DNA of 64,000 bases from Bdellovibrio sp. CG22_combo_CG10-13_8_21_14_all_39_27 (GTDB lineage: Bacteria; Bdellovibrionota; Bacteriovoracia; Bacteriovoracales; Bacteriovoracaceae), in the NCBI GenBank assembly GCA_002786715.1, contig PCTW01000010.1:1-64000 (forward strand). Direction: 5' to 3'. The notes under the pieces were generated by a model. The model was not told where the DNA came from and did not search any database. It saw only the letters and a list, made by a program, of their open reading frames with translations. This document shows, one piece after another, positions 17,676 through 38,700 of this stretch; position 1 is the stretch's first letter, and every line of letters starts with the position of its first letter. The position numbers were made by a program, and so were the translations under genes.

Positions 17676-18671
17676 GTGGCCAAAAAAGACGATTCAAAAG
17701 AGAATAAAGTCAAACTCATTCCAGAAATTTTGGATAAAGATCTTCTGCCTCAAAAAATGGGAGAAACGCTCCCTTCAACCTATTCCGATGATCTCGAAAT
17801 TACCGCTAAAGAACTCGATCGTTACCATCCTTCTAAGGGTGTCGATCCCCTCACTACTTATATTCGTCAAATTAGTCGCTACAAAGTTTTAAGTGCTGAT
17901 CAGGAAAAAAAATTAGTAGATTCATTGCTTGAATCTGGAGATATCGAAGCTGCTAAGGAATTGGTGGTTCACAATCTAAAGCTGGTTGTCAAAATTGCCC
18001 TCGAATACCGCACGGCTTGGCAAAATGTCATGGATCTTATTCAAGAAGGCAATATTGGATTGATGAAGGCCGTTTCAAAATTTGATCCATCTAAGGGAGC
18101 AAAGCTCTCGTATTATGCAAGTTGGTGGATCCGATCATATATCCTAAAATTTATTCTTGATAACTTTCGCATGGTCAAAATGAGTTCAAGTAATGACCAG
18201 AAAAAGCTGTTCTATAATCTCAATAAGGAAAAAAATCGTCTTAAGGCCATGGGGATCGATCCAACAGCAAAAGTAATAGCTGAAAATCTTGGGGTCTCAG
18301 AAAAGGCGGTTATGTTGATGGATCAGCGTATTGGAGAGCAAGGGGGAGAGGTGAGTATGGATGCACCGCTTCTTTCGCATGAATCTTCTTCTACCACTTT
18401 CGGCGATACTATTAGTAATGAAGAGCTTCCCATTGATGAGCAATTGGCCAATGAACAAGGTATTGAAATCCTTACAGAACATCTGAAAGGTTTTGTCGCA
18501 GGGCTAAAAGACCGTGACAAAGAAATCTTCCAAAAGCGCTTAATGGCCGAAGTTCCTCAATCGCTGCAGAGCATAGCAGATGACTATGGCGTCTCCCGAG
18601 AGCGTATCCGTCAAATTGAAGAACGCCTTCTCAATAACTTAAAAGTTTACATGGAAGACTATCTCCGTTAA
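17676..18671 (+). CDS. rpoH: RNA polymerase sigma factor, RpoH (sigma-32) type
   Basis: A 331-residue group-3 sigma-70-family factor. Region 1.2/2 begins at DPLTTYIRQISRYKVLSADQE. Core-binding region 2 contains LVVHNLKLVVKIALEYR and DLIQEGNIGLMKAVSKFDPS, followed by GAKLSYYASWWIRSYILKFI. Region 4 ends with SLQSIADDYGVSRERIRQIE, the helix-turn-helix for the -35 element. The segment DQKKLFYNLNKEK matches the RpoH-specific box (QRKLFFNLR in enterobacteria), which supports a heat-shock type sigma over RpoD or RpoS. The start is GTG 17676 after GAGGTAATCTAA. Because sigma-32 controls chaperones and small heat-shock proteins, the Hsp20-like gene at 34806 is a possible target; this is inference. Confidence 0.87.
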   Translation: MAKKDDSKENKVKLIPEILDKDLLPQKMGETLPSTYSDDLEITAKELDRYHPSKGVDPLTTYIRQISRYKVLSADQEKKLVDSLLESGDIEAAKELVVHNLKLVVKIALEYRTAWQNVMDLIQEGNIGLMKAVSKFDPSKGAKLSYYASWWIRSYILKFILDNFRMVKMSSSNDQKKLFYNLNKEKNRLKAMGIDPTAKVIAENLGVSEKAVMLMDQRIGEQGGEVSMDAPLLSHESSSTTFGDTISNEELPIDEQLANEQGIEILTEHLKGFVAGLKDRDKEIFQKRLMAEVPQSLQSIADDYGVSRERIRQIEERLLNNLKVYMEDYLR

Positions 18672-23377: not shown

Positions 23378-24178
23378 ATGAAAAAAATGACAACTCTTTT
23401 AGCAGCTCTACTTTTTACTCTTTCGCTTCAGGCAAGAGTAGTGGTGGTCTCAGACATTGATGACACTTTAAAAACGGCGAATAGTGTCGGAAAGATAGGA
23501 AAGCTTTATCACTTTCTTCGCAAACAAATTTACCCTCATTCAAGAGATCTTTTTGTCGAGCTTAGTCATTATTACCGCTCAATGAGTGAAGCTGTGGATT
23601 TTTACTATGTATCTGCCGCACCTGACGCTATTTTCGCGCAAGAGAAATGGCTAGATAAGAATGGTTTTCCAGCTGGGCCAACATTTCTTCGTCATTTGGG
23701 TGATCCAAAAGCTTATGATTTTAAATACAAAACGATTGAAAAGTTTTTAAAGAAATATCAAGACGATGGCGAAGTGATCACTGTGTATTTCTTTGGTGAT
23801 AATGCTGATCAAGACCACAATGTTTATCATGATCTGACTCAAAACTTGAAATTGGATTCACACATCTTTATTCGTGATGTGAGAGCAGAAGCTTCTGGCT
23901 TTGAGGGGATTCCTATGAGAAGAGTTGAAAATATAGAGTACTTCTTCTCTGAAAGAGAACTCTCTGATTCTCCAACTCTGGCATTCTTGTCACCTGTTTG
24001 GGAGGCGAGTGTCCAGCTCGATTATGTAAAACAAGACCTCATTCCTAATTATACCTTTGCTACGCTAAAGAGAACTTACAGAAATATTGAAGGCTGTAAG
24101 ATTTATTCTTTCAGTTGTCGTGCGGACGCTAAAGAGCGCGCTCAAATGGCCTGGGAAGACTATTACGCTCGTTACTAA
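23378..24178 (+). CDS. Secreted HAD-type phosphatase of the App1/DUF2183 family
   Basis: A 266-residue protein with a signal peptide (MKKMTTLLAALLFTLSLQA) directly followed by the catalytic motif VVVVSDIDDTLKTANSVGK. The S-D-I-D-D-T-L-K signature is the hallmark of DUF2183, whose yeast member App1 is a phosphatidate phosphatase. Further HAD motifs are YYVSAAPDAI (motif II), the KYKTIEKFLKKY lysines (motif III) and VYFFGDNADQDHNVY (motif IV). A periplasmic location suggests action on phospholipid head groups or phosphatidate in the envelope; the substrate is inference. GTGGGGGAATT precedes the ATG. It ends at a bidirectional terminator. Confidence 0.85.
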   Translation: MKKMTTLLAALLFTLSLQARVVVVSDIDDTLKTANSVGKIGKLYHFLRKQIYPHSRDLFVELSHYYRSMSEAVDFYYVSAAPDAIFAQEKWLDKNGFPAGPTFLRHLGDPKAYDFKYKTIEKFLKKYQDDGEVITVYFFGDNADQDHNVYHDLTQNLKLDSHIFIRDVRAEASGFEGIPMRRVENIEYFFSERELSDSPTLAFLSPVWEASVQLDYVKQDLIPNYTFATLKRTYRNIEGCKIYSFSCRADAKERAQMAWEDYYARY

Positions 24179-32640: not shown

Positions 32641-32884
32641 GGACTCTATTTTAAATTTATCTGCACTAGAGAGCAATCAAACATTAACAGTGGCGCTTTT
32701 GGCCATCGCTTTTATAAGGGTTTTTATTGAAGTTCTCGGTATTCATCCTGAAGAGTGGCCGGTTTCCAAATTTTTGGCAAAAAGTCGTGGTCAAGAATGG
32801 GCCCAATCCTTTCATCGAAAGGGACTCTTTTTATCGATTGGATTTATTCTGCTTTTTGCACCAGGGATTCTTCTTTCACATTAG
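32639..32884 (+). CDS. Small two-helix membrane protein
   Basis: An 81-residue protein with two hydrophobic segments (TLTVALLAIAFIRVFIEVLG and LFLSIGFILLFAPGILL) separated by a polar loop with EEWPVSKFLAKSRGQEW. GAGGA lies eight bases before the ATG, a good ribosome site, which is why I accept it in spite of its size. Its ATG shares two bases with the ATG of the divergent C45-type gene. The end overlaps the convergent HAD gene by 41 bases. Function unknown. Confidence 0.68.
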   Translation: MDSILNLSALESNQTLTVALLAIAFIRVFIEVLGIHPEEWPVSKFLAKSRGQEWAQSFHRKGLFLSIGFILLFAPGILLSH

Positions 32885-34010
32885 CATTTAGAATTTCTGC
32901 ATTACCATCATAAAGTTCAATGACAGAAGAGAACTTCTTTAAAACATCGGGAATCTCTATACTTTCTTCTTGAAGCTTGCGACGAATATAGATCTTCGCA
33001 GTGATTTTCTGATTCTGATTTTCATTTTTTAGACGAATATTATTCAATTGATAAAACTTGCTTAAGAGTTGAGCATCTTGTTTGTGATTCATTTGAAAAG
33101 CTTTTAATTTCTTAAGTTTTTGCCAAAATGTTCTAGGGTCTTGATGTTCTAATAAAAAGGAAACGAGGGCCAAGTAAATGACAGGATCTGCTTCAAAATT
33201 GTCTCCCATCAAAACAATATCATTTGGAATTCCCGCCATAAGCAGAATATCGAGAAGATGATTTAATTTGTAGAGACCGTGGAGCTTGAGGTCTTTCGGA
33301 GTGAGATCCATTTCAAATAAAGAGAAAACTTGTCGGTAATCTTTTAAAAATATTCCTGCAGTGAAAATTTTTCGCTGATAAAGCCAATCTCTAATCGCTT
33401 CTTCATAAAAATGGGGAGAAGCAGAAACGATAAAAGGATGAAAACCTTTTTTATTAAAACTTCTTAAGATAGCAACGGAGCGGGTGACTGTGGGAAAGTA
33501 TTCCAGAGGTTTGGTCAGTGAGAAATAAACCTCTTTAGTCGTAGAGTACTTCGTGTCAACAAGAGTTTTATCAAAATCACAAATGATGAGTTTGCTTGGT
33601 CGAGCTAAGACAAGAGGAATATAACTGCCCAGAAGTAACTCGAGCCCTGGTGTGAGGCTGACTTCATAAACGGAAAGGGCATTAATATTTCTGCGCTCGT
33701 CGTTCAAGGGAATTTTAAAGTTAAAATTACCGTGGGAATCCGATTCGAAAATCTTTCGATATACCTCACTACCATTTGCCATGGCGACAATCTTCATTTG
33801 ATATGTTTTACCCTTTAGAAGTCTGATCGAAGCAATCGGGAATCGAGGAGAGAAAATTTCTTTCTCAATGTTTTGGGCGAGTTCTTGGGCCAAATTATAA
33901 TATACGCCGCCATGGGGGATTGGATTCTCTTTCATTGTCATACCTGCGCGAATGGAGAGAAAATCTTCATTCAATATTGCAGAAAAATGAACTAAATGAG
34001 GTCGTTTCAT
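32844..34010 (-). CDS. Cytoplasmic HAD phosphatase, App1/LNS2-like
   Basis: A 388-residue protein. The N-terminal 140 residues form a beta-rich domain (FPIASIRLLKGKTYQMKIVA, SDSHGNFNFKIPLN) such as often precedes App1-type catalytic domains. The HAD domain has motif I LIICDFDKTLVDT, motif II FIVSASPHFYEEAIRDWL, a lysine-rich motif III region (KDLKLHGLYKLNHLLDIL) and motif IV VLMGDNFEADPVIY. The arrangement resembles the secreted App1-like protein at 23378, but it has no signal peptide and uses DFDKT instead of DIDDT. Likely a lipid- or small-molecule phosphatase; the second motif-I Asp required of phosphatases is replaced by Lys in DFDKT only at the fourth position, so catalysis looks intact (Asp-x-Asp present). 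Confidence 0.75.
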   Translation of the reverse strand: MKRPHLVHFSAILNEDFLSIRAGMTMKENPIPHGGVYYNLAQELAQNIEKEIFSPRFPIASIRLLKGKTYQMKIVAMANGSEVYRKIFESDSHGNFNFKIPLNDERRNINALSVYEVSLTPGLELLLGSYIPLVLARPSKLIICDFDKTLVDTKYSTTKEVYFSLTKPLEYFPTVTRSVAILRSFNKKGFHPFIVSASPHFYEEAIRDWLYQRKIFTAGIFLKDYRQVFSLFEMDLTPKDLKLHGLYKLNHLLDILLMAGIPNDIVLMGDNFEADPVIYLALVSFLLEHQDPRTFWQKLKKLKAFQMNHKQDAQLLSKFYQLNNIRLKNENQNQKITAKIYIRRKLQEESIEIPDVLKKFSSVIELYDGNAEILNANVKEESLVQKAE

Positions 34011-34072: not shown

Positions 34073-34819
34073 ATGGTACACAAAATTTACATTGAATTAA
34101 TTGGCATGACGAATATCTATTTTGGTATGGGGATTAAAATTGTCACGGCCCTCATTCTTGGTGGATTAATTGGATTCGATCGCGAAAAGAAAATGAAATC
34201 TGCAGGTATTAAAACGAATATGCTGATCTGCCTAGGGGCAACTCTATATACTGCTGTTTCAATGCTTTCTCAAAGCGAAACAGGAGTTGGTGATCCGCAT
34301 CGTATTGCCGCGCAGATTGTCTCTGGTATCGGTTTTTTAGGTGCTGGTGCGATTATTCAAGGGAAGGGAAGTGTTATCGGTTTAACTACTGCTGCCACTA
34401 TCTGGGTTTGTGCTGCGGTAGGTGTAACGGTCGGAATGGGTTATCCATTGGTGGCTTCGTTGTTTACTATTACAGTATTGGTCGTACTTAAGCTTTTAGG
34501 TCCAGTATATAAATTATTTGAACAACACAAAGACTATCGAAATTTTCATTTTGAGATTCTGTCAAAAGGTTCGGTTAAAGAAAGTATCCAAGATGTTTTT
34601 GTTGAAGAAAATCAAACTATCACCAATATGATGGAAGAAATCCTCGATCAAAAAGGTGATACTCGAATTTTGCACGTCTACACATTTATTCACCCGAGAA
34701 GAATTGATCGTATGGGTGAAAAAATTAAACAAATTCTAAGAGTTGATAAGGTAAAGTCGAGAGAAGTCGATCATGCCAAAGATGACTCTTCAATAAAGGT
34801 CAACATTAAGCCTTCTTAA
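34073..34819 (+). CDS. MgtC/SapB-family membrane protein
   Basis: A 248-residue protein with the MgtC signature: IKIVTALILGGLIGFDREKK, KSAGIKTNMLICLGATLYT, RIAAQIVSGIGFLGAGAII and GLTTAATIWVCAAVG, forming five membrane helices. The C-terminal 90 residues are a soluble ACT-like domain. MgtC proteins adjust to low magnesium or acid stress and can inhibit F-type ATP synthase; this role is from the family, not shown here. AAGGG lies rather far (13 bases) from the ATG; an internal ATG at 34106 has none. The 3' end overlaps the convergent coiled-coil/Hsp20 gene by 14 bases. Confidence 0.92.
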   Translation: MVHKIYIELIGMTNIYFGMGIKIVTALILGGLIGFDREKKMKSAGIKTNMLICLGATLYTAVSMLSQSETGVGDPHRIAAQIVSGIGFLGAGAIIQGKGSVIGLTTAATIWVCAAVGVTVGMGYPLVASLFTITVLVVLKLLGPVYKLFEQHKDYRNFHFEILSKGSVKESIQDVFVEENQTITNMMEEILDQKGDTRILHVYTFIHPRRIDRMGEKIKQILRVDKVKSREVDHAKDDSSIKVNIKPS

Positions 34820-35987
34820 TCTTGAATTGAAGCCTGCCATCGGAATACTTTTGTTCCATATGCTGAGAATCAACAATATCATTTACTGGAATTTCTTTGC
34901 GATGCCCCTCTGAGCGGGCAGAGTGATAAACAGCTCCGGTATCTTTAGCTTCCATTCTTTCTTGAAAGCGTCTGGCAAAACCGACAGAAATTTTTCTTTT
35001 GTTGGCGGTTACGCTAACACTATCGATTTCAGTTTCTGGTATTTCAAGGGAAACAATGTAGGAATCTCCCATGTCTTCAACTTTGGGTTCAAAAGTTTCG
35101 ATTTGGTAAAAAGGATCTTTGATCTTTTCTTCAGTAACTTGCTTTAATTTTGCATGGTCTTTAATCATTGTATCTAGCTCTGTCTGATACTTTTCTTTCA
35201 TATTATTAACAACAAGATCATGGGCCTTTGTTAAGGCTTCTATTTTTTGATTAAAGCCTATATTTTTTTGCTTGATCAAATCAGAATAGTAGAGGTCTTG
35301 ATTTTTCATTTGATCGACTTGAATTTGTTGTTTAACTTGGGCGTCCTTCATGAGACCACCTAAGCGTTCATTCATTTGCTTTTGGTGTTCTTTTTCAATA
35401 CTTGAAAGAGCTTTTGAATTTTCTGATTCCATACGACTTCGGGCGCTATTGTAATTTTGGTCGATGGTTTTTACTTTAACAGCATTTTGATGCTCTACTT
35501 TATCCAGTTTCAAATGGGCTTCGGTCTGATTCTTAAGAATATTTCTCTCTGCTTGAGAATCGATATCTTTGATATGAAGATTTACTTTATGATTAATGTC
35601 TTTTGACATTTCTTGTCCATCTTCAAACTGTTTTTCAAATTTATCATTGTAGAAGGCATTTGTATCTTGAACCTGATCCTGATGACTTTTGACTAAACGA
35701 TCGTGTTCTTGATCGAGCATCGTTTGAGTGGTGATGAGGTTCGTTCTTAATTGTTCAAGCTTTTCAGATTGCCCGTCAACGGCTTCGACTAGTTTCTGTT
35801 GGTTGAGATCGTGTACTTCTACTAATTCTTTTTCGCCTTCAACTTTTTTGTCTTCTTTCTTCTTGTCATAGAGCTTGCCAATATTTTCAATTTCTGATTG
35901 GCGTTGAATGATTTGTGCCCTTTGGTCTTTGACCAAGTCTCTTAATTGATTTCGCTGTTCAGCTGCTTGATTTGAGTTGATTTTCAA
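34806..35987 (-). CDS. Long coiled-coil protein with C-terminal Hsp20/alpha-crystallin-like domain
   Basis: A 393-residue protein starting at TTG 35987, chosen because a perfect AAGGAG lies six bases upstream. Residues 1-295 are almost entirely charged coiled coil (QRNQLRDLVKDQRAQIIQRQ, RMESENSKALSSIEKEHQKQ). Residues 299-393 match the small-heat-shock alpha-crystallin pattern: DSYIVSLEIPETEIDSVSVT, ANKRKISVGFARRF, then RKEIPVNDIVDSQHMEQKYSDGRLQFKIKKA split by a linker; the closing YSDGRLQFKIKK corresponds to the Y-x-D-G-V/L-L-x-V/I-x-I-P-K strand of Hsp20. Ordinary Hsp20 proteins are 130-200 residues with short N-termini. A CS/p23 domain is an alternative name for the same fold. Third gene of a minus-strand run. 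Confidence 0.78.
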   Translation of the reverse strand: MKINSNQAAEQRNQLRDLVKDQRAQIIQRQSEIENIGKLYDKKKEDKKVEGEKELVEVHDLNQQKLVEAVDGQSEKLEQLRTNLITTQTMLDQEHDRLVKSHQDQVQDTNAFYNDKFEKQFEDGQEMSKDINHKVNLHIKDIDSQAERNILKNQTEAHLKLDKVEHQNAVKVKTIDQNYNSARSRMESENSKALSSIEKEHQKQMNERLGGLMKDAQVKQQIQVDQMKNQDLYYSDLIKQKNIGFNQKIEALTKAHDLVVNNMKEKYQTELDTMIKDHAKLKQVTEEKIKDPFYQIETFEPKVEDMGDSYIVSLEIPETEIDSVSVTANKRKISVGFARRFQERMEAKDTGAVYHSARSEGHRKEIPVNDIVDSQHMEQKYSDGRLQFKIKKA

Positions 35988-36008: not shown

Positions 36009-36305
36009 CTAAGGCGAATTTTGACCTTTCTCCATCACCTCAAGAGGTGAGGGACAGATCTTTTTAAATTGTGAAGTGTCTCCTGGACAACTCCAAGTTC
36101 TTACGAGATCGATATCAATAGAATCTGCTCCACCATGATAGGCTTGATAAGTCACTGGATTCATCGTTGATGTAATCAAGTAAGCCTCACGATCCATAGA
36201 GTATCTATTTTGAGATTTTACGTAATATTGATAAACTCGATATTCCGCATTTGCCGATAAGCTAAGAAGTGAAATGAACATCAACGTGATGATCATTTTT
36301 TTCAT
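36009..36305 (-). CDS. Small secreted protein, unknown
   Basis: A 98-residue protein with a signal peptide (MKKMIITLMFISLLSLSANA). The mature part is polar with tyrosine-rich EYRVYQYYVKSQNRYSMD, a TYQAYHGG segment and two cysteines (WSCPGDTSQFKKICPS) likely disulphide bonded. GGAG precedes the ATG, which overlaps the upstream gene by four bases; the coiled-coil/Hsp20 gene starts 21 bases downstream. Function unknown. Confidence 0.75.
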   Translation of the reverse strand: MKKMIITLMFISLLSLSANAEYRVYQYYVKSQNRYSMDREAYLITSTMNPVTYQAYHGGADSIDIDLVRTWSCPGDTSQFKKICPSPLEVMEKGQNSP

Positions 36306-36604
36306 TGGATCTCCGGGCGGCGATCAAGAATTTTTCCTTCAACTAATTTTAAGAAAGCACGAACCACTAATTGACGATCAATCGGGTCCATACCAGTTAG
36401 CACGACTTTTTTTCGTTCAATGCTTCTATGAACACAAAGTCTTTCAAGCAATTTTTTTGCTTTTACTTTTTCATTTCCTGTCAGCTTCTTCCGTTGAGGG
36501 CCAACTTCTTTAATCCAATCCATATCGAAAAGAGGAAAGTGACCAAAAGTCCCTAACTCAACAAGGTGGTGGATCGATCTGTCTGTGCGATGATAAAATT
36601 CCAT
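36302..36604 (-). CDS. Small cytoplasmic protein, unknown
   Basis: A 100-residue basic protein without signal peptide or membrane segment; no family recognised. It is rich in leucine, lysine and arginine, with helices around NEKVKAKKLLERLCVHRSIE and DRQLVVRAFLKLVEGKI. GGAG lies eight bases from the ATG. It is the first gene of a three-gene unit (this gene, a secreted protein, coiled-coil/Hsp20), linked to the second by a 4-base overlap. Confidence 0.7.
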   Translation of the reverse strand: MEFYHRTDRSIHHLVELGTFGHFPLFDMDWIKEVGPQRKKLTGNEKVKAKKLLERLCVHRSIERKKVVLTGMDPIDRQLVVRAFLKLVEGKILDRRPEIQ

Positions 36605-36736
36605 TTATTATTCTCCGAAAAGTTGGCGGCAACCGCTAATATCAGCTTACCAAGAACTAGCCTATCCATAAGAGAGGGAAATGATTTCCTTTACAAGAGG
36701 CATCAACTATTTGAAAGTTGGAATTTGGGATAAGGC

Positions 36737-36766
36737 TTGGATTCCGACCGACTTGGCGTGTACAAT
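36737..36766 (+). promoter_or_regulatory. Candidate sigma-70-type promoter
   Basis: TTGGAT (36737-36742) and TACAAT (36761-36766) are separated by 18 bases, 54 bases upstream of the beta-barrel-like gene at 36821. Both hexamers are near consensus. The rest of the 216-base region (36605-36820) holds only a small open frame at 36681-36806, discussed in the findings. Confidence 0.35.
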
Positions 36767-36820
36767 GTTAATGAGGGATATGGATATCCTGATACTTTTA
36801 GTCTGATAAGGATTTAAGTT

Positions 36821-37756
36821 ATGAAGATGAAATGGAATTCTGCTTTATGGGCCTTCTCTTTTCTTATTACTTCCACGAGTGCTTTTGCCCTCGTTGATTA
36901 TTCAGAGCCCTCTGATTTTAAGCCACAAAATAGCGGTGCTGAATCTCCGGCCCCAGTTAAAAATAAAATTTCGAGTAAAGCTCCTTCAAAATCTTCTTCC
37001 GCCGGAAGAGGGTTGGGAATGTTTTCACTCGGGGCCCATTACGAAAGTATGGAAGTACCCTTGAATGGTTCGCGCGGAAAGGTGAGTACTTCGCATCTCG
37101 ATGGTCATTTTCAAACTCTTTATAATATTTTCGTCGATTTTGATTACAGACATGCTGAAACTTCTTCACAAGCTCTCAATCCAGAGGGAAAGTCGGGCAA
37201 GGGGAATCCTCTGGTAAAGTTAGGGTTTAATTGGTTTGATATTGGTGGAGTTGAAGATAAGGCTCAAATTAATTTCATTGGAGGTTATAGCTTCGGCCAG
37301 AAAGACAGCTACTTTGCTACCAGTAGAGATGATAAAATTGTTGGAGTAGAGACTATTAAGCGTTTTTCTGATTTTGCCATCGGTCTTGGTTTTGATATGA
37401 GAATTACTGGTACTCCTAAAGAAGAAGCTGAAATGGGAGTCGGCAACATTCAAAGCTTGATGGCCCATATCGGTTGGAGAGCAACTCCTGATATTGCTTT
37501 TGTTATTGAAGGTTCTACGACGAAAGTTGCAGCCTCAAGTGAAACAAATCGATTAAACAAGCTGACTGAAGATATTTCTTTTGGTCAAATCACACCCAAA
37601 TTGCAATTGGGTCTATCTCCTATGATAGAATTAGAACTGGGAGCTACTTTTAGAACCAAAAGAGTAAGCGATGGTGAGTTTGTAGATGCACGTCTTTGGA
37701 ATATCACTGGTGCTTATGGCAATAGTATTTTTGCAGGTCTTTTGGTTAATTTATAG
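36821..37756 (+). CDS. Predicted outer-membrane beta-barrel protein
   Basis: A 311-residue protein with a signal peptide (MKMKWNSALWAFSFLITSTSAFA), a 45-residue proline/serine/lysine-rich linker, and a C-terminal 230 residues of alternating strands with aromatic girdle residues (MFSLGAHYESMEVPL, IFVDFDYRHAETSS, INFIGGYSFGQKDSYFA, FAIGLGFDMRITG, LWNITGAYGNSIFAG). It ends in LLVNL, compatible with a barrel C-terminus. Likely a small 8-12 strand outer-membrane protein; no family name is assigned. AAGGA precedes the ATG. The zinc-finger gene follows after 26 bases. Confidence 0.75.
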   Translation: MKMKWNSALWAFSFLITSTSAFALVDYSEPSDFKPQNSGAESPAPVKNKISSKAPSKSSSAGRGLGMFSLGAHYESMEVPLNGSRGKVSTSHLDGHFQTLYNIFVDFDYRHAETSSQALNPEGKSGKGNPLVKLGFNWFDIGGVEDKAQINFIGGYSFGQKDSYFATSRDDKIVGVETIKRFSDFAIGLGFDMRITGTPKEEAEMGVGNIQSLMAHIGWRATPDIAFVIEGSTTKVAASSETNRLNKLTEDISFGQITPKLQLGLSPMIELELGATFRTKRVSDGEFVDARLWNITGAYGNSIFAGLLVNL

Positions 37757-37782: not shown

Positions 37783-38700
37783 TTGAAATTTGACGGAACT
37801 CTCTATTATTGCAGTCAATGTCGAAAAATCATAAAAACTTTAGATGATATGCTTTTTGTTGAAGAAGGAACCCCTCGTGGTTTTTGTTGTGAAAGTTGTA
37901 TCGAATCGTTTTACGCTCCGATTGTGCTTCATTTTGAAGAATTAGAAAAACAATATCGAAGAGAGCTCAATCTCAATAATGAACTTTGTTTGACAGTGCT
38001 TCATTCTCCGACAACAGAAGAGGAATCAGGAGAGAGTCAATGGTCATTACTGATGGACCAAGCTATTCACCATCCCGATGAAATTTACAGGTCTGAAAAT
38101 CAATTAAAAGAAGAATTTTTTGTGCTCATTAAGCATTTCAATGACCCTAACTGGGGTAAGTTTTCAATGCTCATCATGAGCTTTCTTTTTGACCAACAAG
38201 TTTCATTTATTTTGGCAGCGACTGTTACTTCTTCCCAAACTTTTTTAGATCGCTATCGTTTTGGAGAGAAACAGCAAATGGACCTTCAGTCTCCGGATGC
38301 CTCAGGTGTTCAGAAAATGGATATAGATCAAGAAACAATTGAGATGCTCGATCACAAAAAGTCAGTTTTTTTGGCCGAGATGATTGAAGAGAGATCTCCC
38401 GCAGATATTCCGATTGAACAATTCAATCTCTATGACGATTATTTTGTTCCTACTTTAGAAGCGCCAGATGAGATTTTTTTATTTAAAGATCGTGAAGGCG
38501 ACGAGATCTATATTTATATCAAGGCCCATGATAATGAAGGTGTTAGTTTTTATTATGTCATTTTGTGCTTCAAGTATAGATCAAATATGACAAATGCTCA
38601 GGACACGGTTCTTCCGATTCTCGCATTCCCGACAGTTGATGGAGAGATTTACCACAACTATCGTCGCGGAACTCTCATTACTGGTCAGCTAAAAAATTAA
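37783..38700 (+). CDS. Protein with N-terminal treble-clef-like zinc finger
   Basis: A 305-residue cytoplasmic protein. The first 45 residues hold a CxxC...CCxxC arrangement (Cys10, Cys13, Cys35, Cys36, Cys39 in YYCSQCRK and GFCCESCIESFY), typical of a small zinc-binding treble-clef/TRASH-like finger. The remaining 260 residues form an unrecognised alpha/beta domain rich in acidic and aromatic residues. The start is TTG 37783, preceded by AGGGG at a suitable distance. It probably shares a transcript with the beta-barrel-like gene. Its stop shares four bases with the stop of the convergent lipoprotein gene. Confidence 0.72.
   Translation: MKFDGTLYYCSQCRKIIKTLDDMLFVEEGTPRGFCCESCIESFYAPIVLHFEELEKQYRRELNLNNELCLTVLHSPTTEEESGESQWSLLMDQAIHHPDEIYRSENQLKEEFFVLIKHFNDPNWGKFSMLIMSFLFDQQVSFILAATVTSSQTFLDRYRFGEKQQMDLQSPDASGVQKMDIDQETIEMLDHKKSVFLAEMIEERSPADIPIEQFNLYDDYFVPTLEAPDEIFLFKDREGDEIYIYIKAHDNEGVSFYYVILCFKYRSNMTNAQDTVLPILAFPTVDGEIYHNYRRGTLITGQLKN

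Follow-up and report, generated by a model that had tools for sequence, protein, structure and literature searches.

The locus described here raises the question of what an alpha-crystallin (Hsp20) domain does when it is placed at the end of a long helical rod, and whether the resulting protein is a chaperone, a scaffold or something else. The window, i.e. the whole stretch of 64,000 nucleotides from the contig PCTW01000010.1 of Bdellovibrio sp. CG22_combo_CG10-13_8_21_14_all_39_27 that was analyzed, encodes such a protein on its minus strand. An earlier note, made from the sequence alone, had proposed an open reading frame of this kind, and the frame proved to be real and conserved. Its TTG start codon has GGAG upstream and is supported by the relatives, which begin with MK[VI] at the equivalent place. 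In a full-length alignment, the 37 rod-ACD orthologues (ACD, alpha-crystallin domain) have both the start and the stop at similar positions. The coordinates of the gene, its two parts and its neighbors are collected in Table 1.

Table 1. Features of the rod-ACD locus in the window
Feature	Position	Strand	Description
rod-ACD gene	34806..35987	-	393 aa, TTG start; rod ~7-290 and ACD 302-392, no C-terminal extension
Alpha-crystallin (Hsp20) domain	34806..35087	-	residues about 301-393
Helical rod	35118..35969	-	residues 7-290, 11-residue hydrophobic periodicity
c1	36009..36305	-	exported ~98-aa protein, directly upstream of the rod gene
c6	36302..36604	-	100-aa five-helix protein, no signal peptide, 4-nt overlap with c1
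Intergenic region	36605..36820	.	between divergent genes; presumed promoter of c6-c1-rod
Signal-peptide protein	36821..37756	+	outer-membrane-like by eye, between the operon and c0
c0	37783..38700	+	divergent; N-terminal C-x2-C...F-C-x3-C zinc-finger-like motif and PBECR2-like domain(s)

The fusion of a rod with an Hsp20-like fold, as originally suggested, was confirmed by profile comparisons and by an AlphaFold model built with the orthologue alignment. The model (mean pLDDT 82) contains an unbroken helix at residues 7-290, mostly with pLDDT 75-93, followed by a beta-sandwich at residues 302-392. Because of the low pTM (0.32), which is expected for a lone long helix in a model of the monomer only, the domains are trusted but not the relative placement of rod and head. 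Sequence conservation is higher at the two ends of the rod (0.36 and 0.35) than in its middle (0.26), and equals 0.53 at the junction and 0.47 in the ACD. The junction motif D-x-F-Y at positions 291-294 is nearly invariant, and the N-terminal rod motif E.EL..LK..Y..K......GEAA[IV].HI is recognizable across families.

When the window protein was compared alone with Pfam, NCBIfam and PDB, only chance helix matches were obtained, with no Hsp20 match in Pfam, and thus the Hsp20 assignment needs the family. PF00011 was matched by 23 of 38 family members at E <= 0.1 (best 3.4e-10), and the family profile matched the solved Hsp16 and HspA structures in PDB at residues 299-392 with E of 3e-5 to 6e-5. 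All 16 Foldseek hits of the AlphaFold model with E <= 0.001 were small heat-shock or alpha-crystallin chains, the top hits having E of 2e-4 and TMt up to 0.68. In an hhalign comparison, rod-ACD aligned with ordinary Hsp20s from its own clade and phylum over 94 columns (probability 98.1%, E 6.3e-14). The C-terminal domain of rod-ACD is an alpha-crystallin domain by descent. The comparison of residues 290-393 with Hsp20 (PF00011) and CS (PF04969), proposed by the earlier note, came out on the Hsp20 side and with the predicted beta-sandwich: the 38 members matched no CS family in Pfam, and PF00011 was the match found most often by a wide margin.

In small heat-shock proteins (sHSPs), the IXI C-terminal extension links dimers into oligomeric cages. 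The rod-ACD chains of the window's family stop directly after the last strand, with a KIKKA-type end, and the IXI motif, searched for as a simple pattern (I/V-x-I/V), is missing from 87 of 89 family C-terminal tails. Ordinary Hsp20s from this clade do carry an IXI tail, and the genome of the window has four further Hsp20 matches beside rod-ACD. Since its ACD comes without the IXI extension, this protein is not naturally read as a giant Hsp20 chaperone. Two of the four other Hsp20-like proteins in the genome (L003 1174-1758 and L004 1213-1863) begin with a membrane or signal segment, which suggests that they are exported Hsp20-fold proteins.

The rod itself had been described as nearly pure charged heptads, and this description was not borne out in either respect. 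Charged residues make up 35% of the window rod, ILMVFYW 27% and Q/N 19%. The hydrophobic periodicity of the rod peaks at 3.655 residues with a power of 15.8, compared with 2.2 at the heptad value of 3.5, and the peak exceeds that of all 2000 shuffles of the window rod (maximum 12.2). Each of the 89 distinct family rods that were long enough to be used peaks near 3.66 (5th-95th percentile 3.65-3.665), with little or no power at 3.5; tropomyosin, used as a heptad control, peaks at exactly 3.500. The repeat of the rod is a hendecad (11/3), not a heptad. The control set of other long coiled coils from the loci analyzed consists of one ORF only, which is also hendecad-like. By leave-one-out phasing, the hydrophobic stripe is ~100 degrees wide and takes up about 3-4 of 11 positions, while neither K/R nor D/E is concentrated anywhere outside this stripe. 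Hendecad periodicity (peak 3.68) was also noted in a 634-aa Bdellovibrionota ORF (L128 1375-3279), of which the family profile matches the helical part only.

The search for this architecture across Bdellovibrionota that the earlier note had recommended revealed a wide distribution. A single-sequence search gave a match in 109 of 129 genomes of the order, nearly always as one full-length copy, and profile searches found the rod-ACD architecture in nearly all Bdellovibrionota families sampled, again nearly always in a single copy. The raw count of 332 out of 369 genomes also covers ordinary Hsp20s and does not measure how widely the architecture occurs. A plasmid search for rod-ACD gave no match, and a scan of genome contigs with short peptide patterns found one Bacteriovoracia relative. 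Despite low identity, most proteins of the window's family have a total length of 383-424 aa. In other families the rods are often longer and the total reaches about 400-565 aa; rod-ACD proteins of 427 aa occur in a family that we take to be Bdellovibrionaceae. A few lineages have much shorter rods, such as L125 with 215 aa in total and a rod of about 100 residues. As rod length differs between families, from about 100 to 450 residues, no single length is critical across the phylum.

As stated in the earlier note, two small co-directional genes lie upstream of the rod gene, one for a secreted and one for a cytoplasmic protein: c1 has a signal peptide and c6 has none. The signal peptide of c1 ends in SANA, before EYRVYQ, and the protein has two invariant cysteines (C73 and C84); c1 was found in 237 of 369 genomes, normally with one copy each. 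Structure prediction for c6 gave a confident five-helix model, which has no match in PDB below E 2.5, and searches of Pfam and PDB with c1 and c6 revealed no convincing relative of either. Every one of the 40 aligned c6 sequences (the window and 39 relatives across the phylum) ends in His or Gln. Because His/Gln is kept even without an overlap with the neighboring gene, a constraint on the C-terminal residue of c6 is suggested. On the other side of the presumed promoter, c0 matches PF18810 (best 9e-21), and the signal-peptide protein encoded next to it was found in 22 of the 34 comparison sets of the order, with no hit in other families.

Within the order (34 comparison sets, i.e. 33 loci and the window), c1 is located directly upstream of the rod gene in all sets, and c6 was found in 29 of them. 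Among 72 tabulated loci of the phylum, which include L163, merely an ordinary Hsp20, c1 is co-directional and upstream in 59, and c6 likewise in 59. In about 66 of these 72, as counted from the table, c0 is divergent beside the operon, being its most constant neighbor. A 4-nt overlap between c1 and the rod gene is frequent in the window's family. At the loci without c1, c6 usually touches the rod gene, with an overlap or a gap of a few tens of nt, and by this measure c6 and the rod form the tightest pair. The conserved order of the cluster is divergent c0, then c6, exported c1 and rod-ACD. This conservation shows functional linkage of the genes, not physical contact of their products.

The rod and c1 are also kept or lost together. 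Of the 129 genomes in the window's family, 106 have both genes, 15 neither, five c1 only and three the rod only. However, in four of the five genomes with c1 only the N-terminus of the rod runs off a contig end, and all three matches with the rod only start no later than base 57 of their contigs. With these contig-edge artefacts resolved, there are 113 genomes with both, 15 with neither and one exception. On the raw table, Fisher's exact test gives p = 7e-13, a value that is only indicative because related genomes are not independent; several of the 15 genomes with neither gene fall in the same genera. The sole real exception is G091, a 94%-complete metagenome-assembled genome (MAG) in which c6 and c1 are kept and the rod gene is cleanly absent. 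This may be a natural deletion or a misassembly of the MAG, and the rod is perhaps dispensable to c6 and c1 there. At this locus (L174 1183-3268), 52 bp separate c1 from the next gene. The co-inheritance provides a first functional link for three uncharacterised families (c0, c6 and c1).

A link to heat shock had been suggested by a sigma-32-type gene in the window. A sigma-70-family gene is indeed present at 17676-18671, at a distance of 17 kb from rod-ACD, but the heat-shock link itself received no backing: simple patterns for a sigma-32-like or CIRCE consensus found none in 29 upstream regions, a weak negative since the consensus may not be that of the phylum. A shared string (CTACCCTCT-like; CTACCC[TG]CT) was observed in L038, L044, L047, L048, L049 and others, where it precedes the start of c6 by some tens of nt, and the window lacks a clear copy. 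It is possible that this string is a promoter or regulator site.

We tentatively favor, as a plausible though by no means assured explanation, that rod-ACD acts as a coiled-coil scaffold or spacer, of fixed length in each family, which carries ACD tips and works with c6. Of the extended or polymeric and perhaps cytoskeletal scaffold imagined in the earlier note, the extended scaffold is the best reading of the protein; polymerisation found no support, and the IXI extension is absent. The presumably cytoplasmic rod, in single copy and Bdellovibrionota-wide, would measure about 43 nm if ~284 residues form an unbroken helix at 0.15 nm per residue. With an 11-residue periodicity, the helices most likely pair in a straight, weakly twisted coiled coil, and because ACDs also dimerise, a parallel dimer is probable. 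The C-terminal end of such a parallel dimer would carry a pair of ACD heads, and its N-terminal end would expose the conserved motif E-x-E-L-x2-L-K-x2-Y-x2-K, then G-E-A-A-[IV]-x-H-I. Without IXI, the ACD should serve as a binding or dimer head, not in the usual sHSP cage. The N-terminal end may dock on one partner and the ACD head hold another, with c6 as the putative cytoplasmic partner of rod-ACD and c1 possibly acting in the same process on the envelope side. The conserved rod ends and the near-constant total length in the window's family were counted for the spacer idea. As a counter-point, an ACD without IXI can still have a holdase role.

The main rival to the scaffold is a specialised small heat-shock chaperone, whose ACD would capture unfolding clients and whose rod would only space or anchor the heads, so that the protein would belong to proteostasis. 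In its favor, the domain is genuinely an ACD, showing the strand pattern of Hsp20 and a terminal GVL-type motif. We nevertheless regard it as unlikely, if deserving serious consideration, given that the IXI extension is absent, the rod replaces the usual flexible N-terminal arm, the window's genome already has four other Hsp20 matches, and the operon partners include no known chaperone family; the lack of a sigma-32 or CIRCE consensus upstream adds weakly to this list. A cytoskeletal element, whose rods would polymerise by their ends or laterally in the manner of bacterial intermediate-filament-type proteins and with the ACD as a tail domain, appears rather improbable. The long helical rod that ends in a globular beta-sandwich agrees with it, as does the occurrence of the protein almost throughout a phylum whose members are small predators that change shape; on the other hand, the rod has no heptads, the L125 rod of about 100 residues is short for a filament protein, and there is no IXI motif to bridge the ACDs.

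The 11-residue periodicity, similar to the repeats of apolipoproteins, is equally counted in favor of an amphipathic, apolipoprotein-like helix that lies on the membrane and tethers the ACD to the inner membrane, together with weak profile matches to apolipoprotein A-I/A-IV (A-IV E 1.8e-6) and an exported partner that suggests an envelope process. However, matches of low-complexity helices are expected from composition, and the rod has no lysine rims with an acidic centre. Because its stripe is narrow and its charges are even, an a/d/e/h coiled-coil core fits better than an apolipoprotein-type membrane helix, which we consider highly doubtful. Little credence is also given to the idea that rod-ACD inhibits, activates or chaperones c0, whose PBECR2-like part would have a RelE/EndoU-like nuclease fold, within a toxin-antitoxin-like or stress-nuclease module. 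Although c0 is the most constant neighbor and its PF18810 match is as good as 9e-21, it is divergent and outside the operon, and a near-universal single copy is unlike toxin-antitoxin systems. Beyond the scaffold reading, it is also unlikely, if again deserving serious consideration, that c0, c6, c1 and rod-ACD together constitute an undescribed multi-protein apparatus with a cytoplasmic rod and an exported component, dating from the base of Bdellovibrionota, a phylum-defining structure for which the ACD was recruited as a rod tip and not as a stress chaperone.

Subunits of sHSPs are of about 12-43 kDa and have a short, poorly ordered N-terminal arm; they form large oligomers and act as ATP-independent holdases. 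Rod-ACD resembles them (PF00011) in its ACD, which is homologous, keeps their strand order and has a terminal G-[VL]-L type motif, and differs from them by its 393 aa, the 290-residue hendecad rod, the lack of an IXI extension and the orphan operon. The NudC-type layout, which is eukaryotic and linked to Hsp90 and dynein, combines an N-terminal coiled coil with a CS/p23-like domain. Similarly, rod-ACD joins a putative helical dimerisation segment to a beta-sandwich of the ACD/CS fold, which makes the NudC-type proteins (reviewed in PMC10780334) an adaptor analogy; in contrast to rod-ACD, their nearest sequence family is CS and their coiled coil is far shorter, and shared ancestry of the architecture is not claimed. 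With hendecad coiled coils (a/d/e/h core) the protein shares the 3.66-residue periodicity over the whole rod and the narrow core stripe, whereas no fusion to an ACD was found described for them in the papers searched. A major survey of hendecad families appeared in J Struct Biol in 2023. The KfrA-type plasmid proteins, bacterial coiled-coil proteins that have been proposed to be cytoskeletal (PMC7821693), likewise combine a globular head with a long helical tail; the KfrA head is N-terminal and DNA-binding, and the proteins are plasmid-borne and have no ACD.

In the literature search, the rod-ACD protein appeared undescribed and no relevant pairing of Bdellovibrio with Hsp20 was found, an earlier mention in hendecad surveys being possible. 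The guessed locus-tag ranges are not mentioned in the main text of a Bdellovibrio Tn-seq paper (PMC6561027). The parts are of known kinds (an ACD and a hendecad helix), and it is their combination, its phylum-wide constancy and the orphan operon that were not found described. Conservation throughout the phylum suggests a common, unstudied component of the cell. Nearly all work on ACDs concerns free oligomeric chaperones, and here an ACD is mounted permanently on a long hendecad rod. Because Bdellovibrio, a tractable predator, belongs to the phylum in which the protein and its orphan partners are conserved, the role of the protein is accessible to direct study.

Several other genes were noted around the operon. 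The window encodes two proteins matching the APP1 phosphatidate-phosphatase catalytic domain (23378-24178 and 32844-34010), and the gene at 32844-34010 is a conserved neighbor of the rod operon within the order. An MgtC gene overlaps the 3' end of the rod gene by 14 nt in the window. Many relatives (L042 7107-7388, L051 5763-6041 and others) have at the corresponding place a convergent 94-aa gene that looks acylphosphatase-like by eye.
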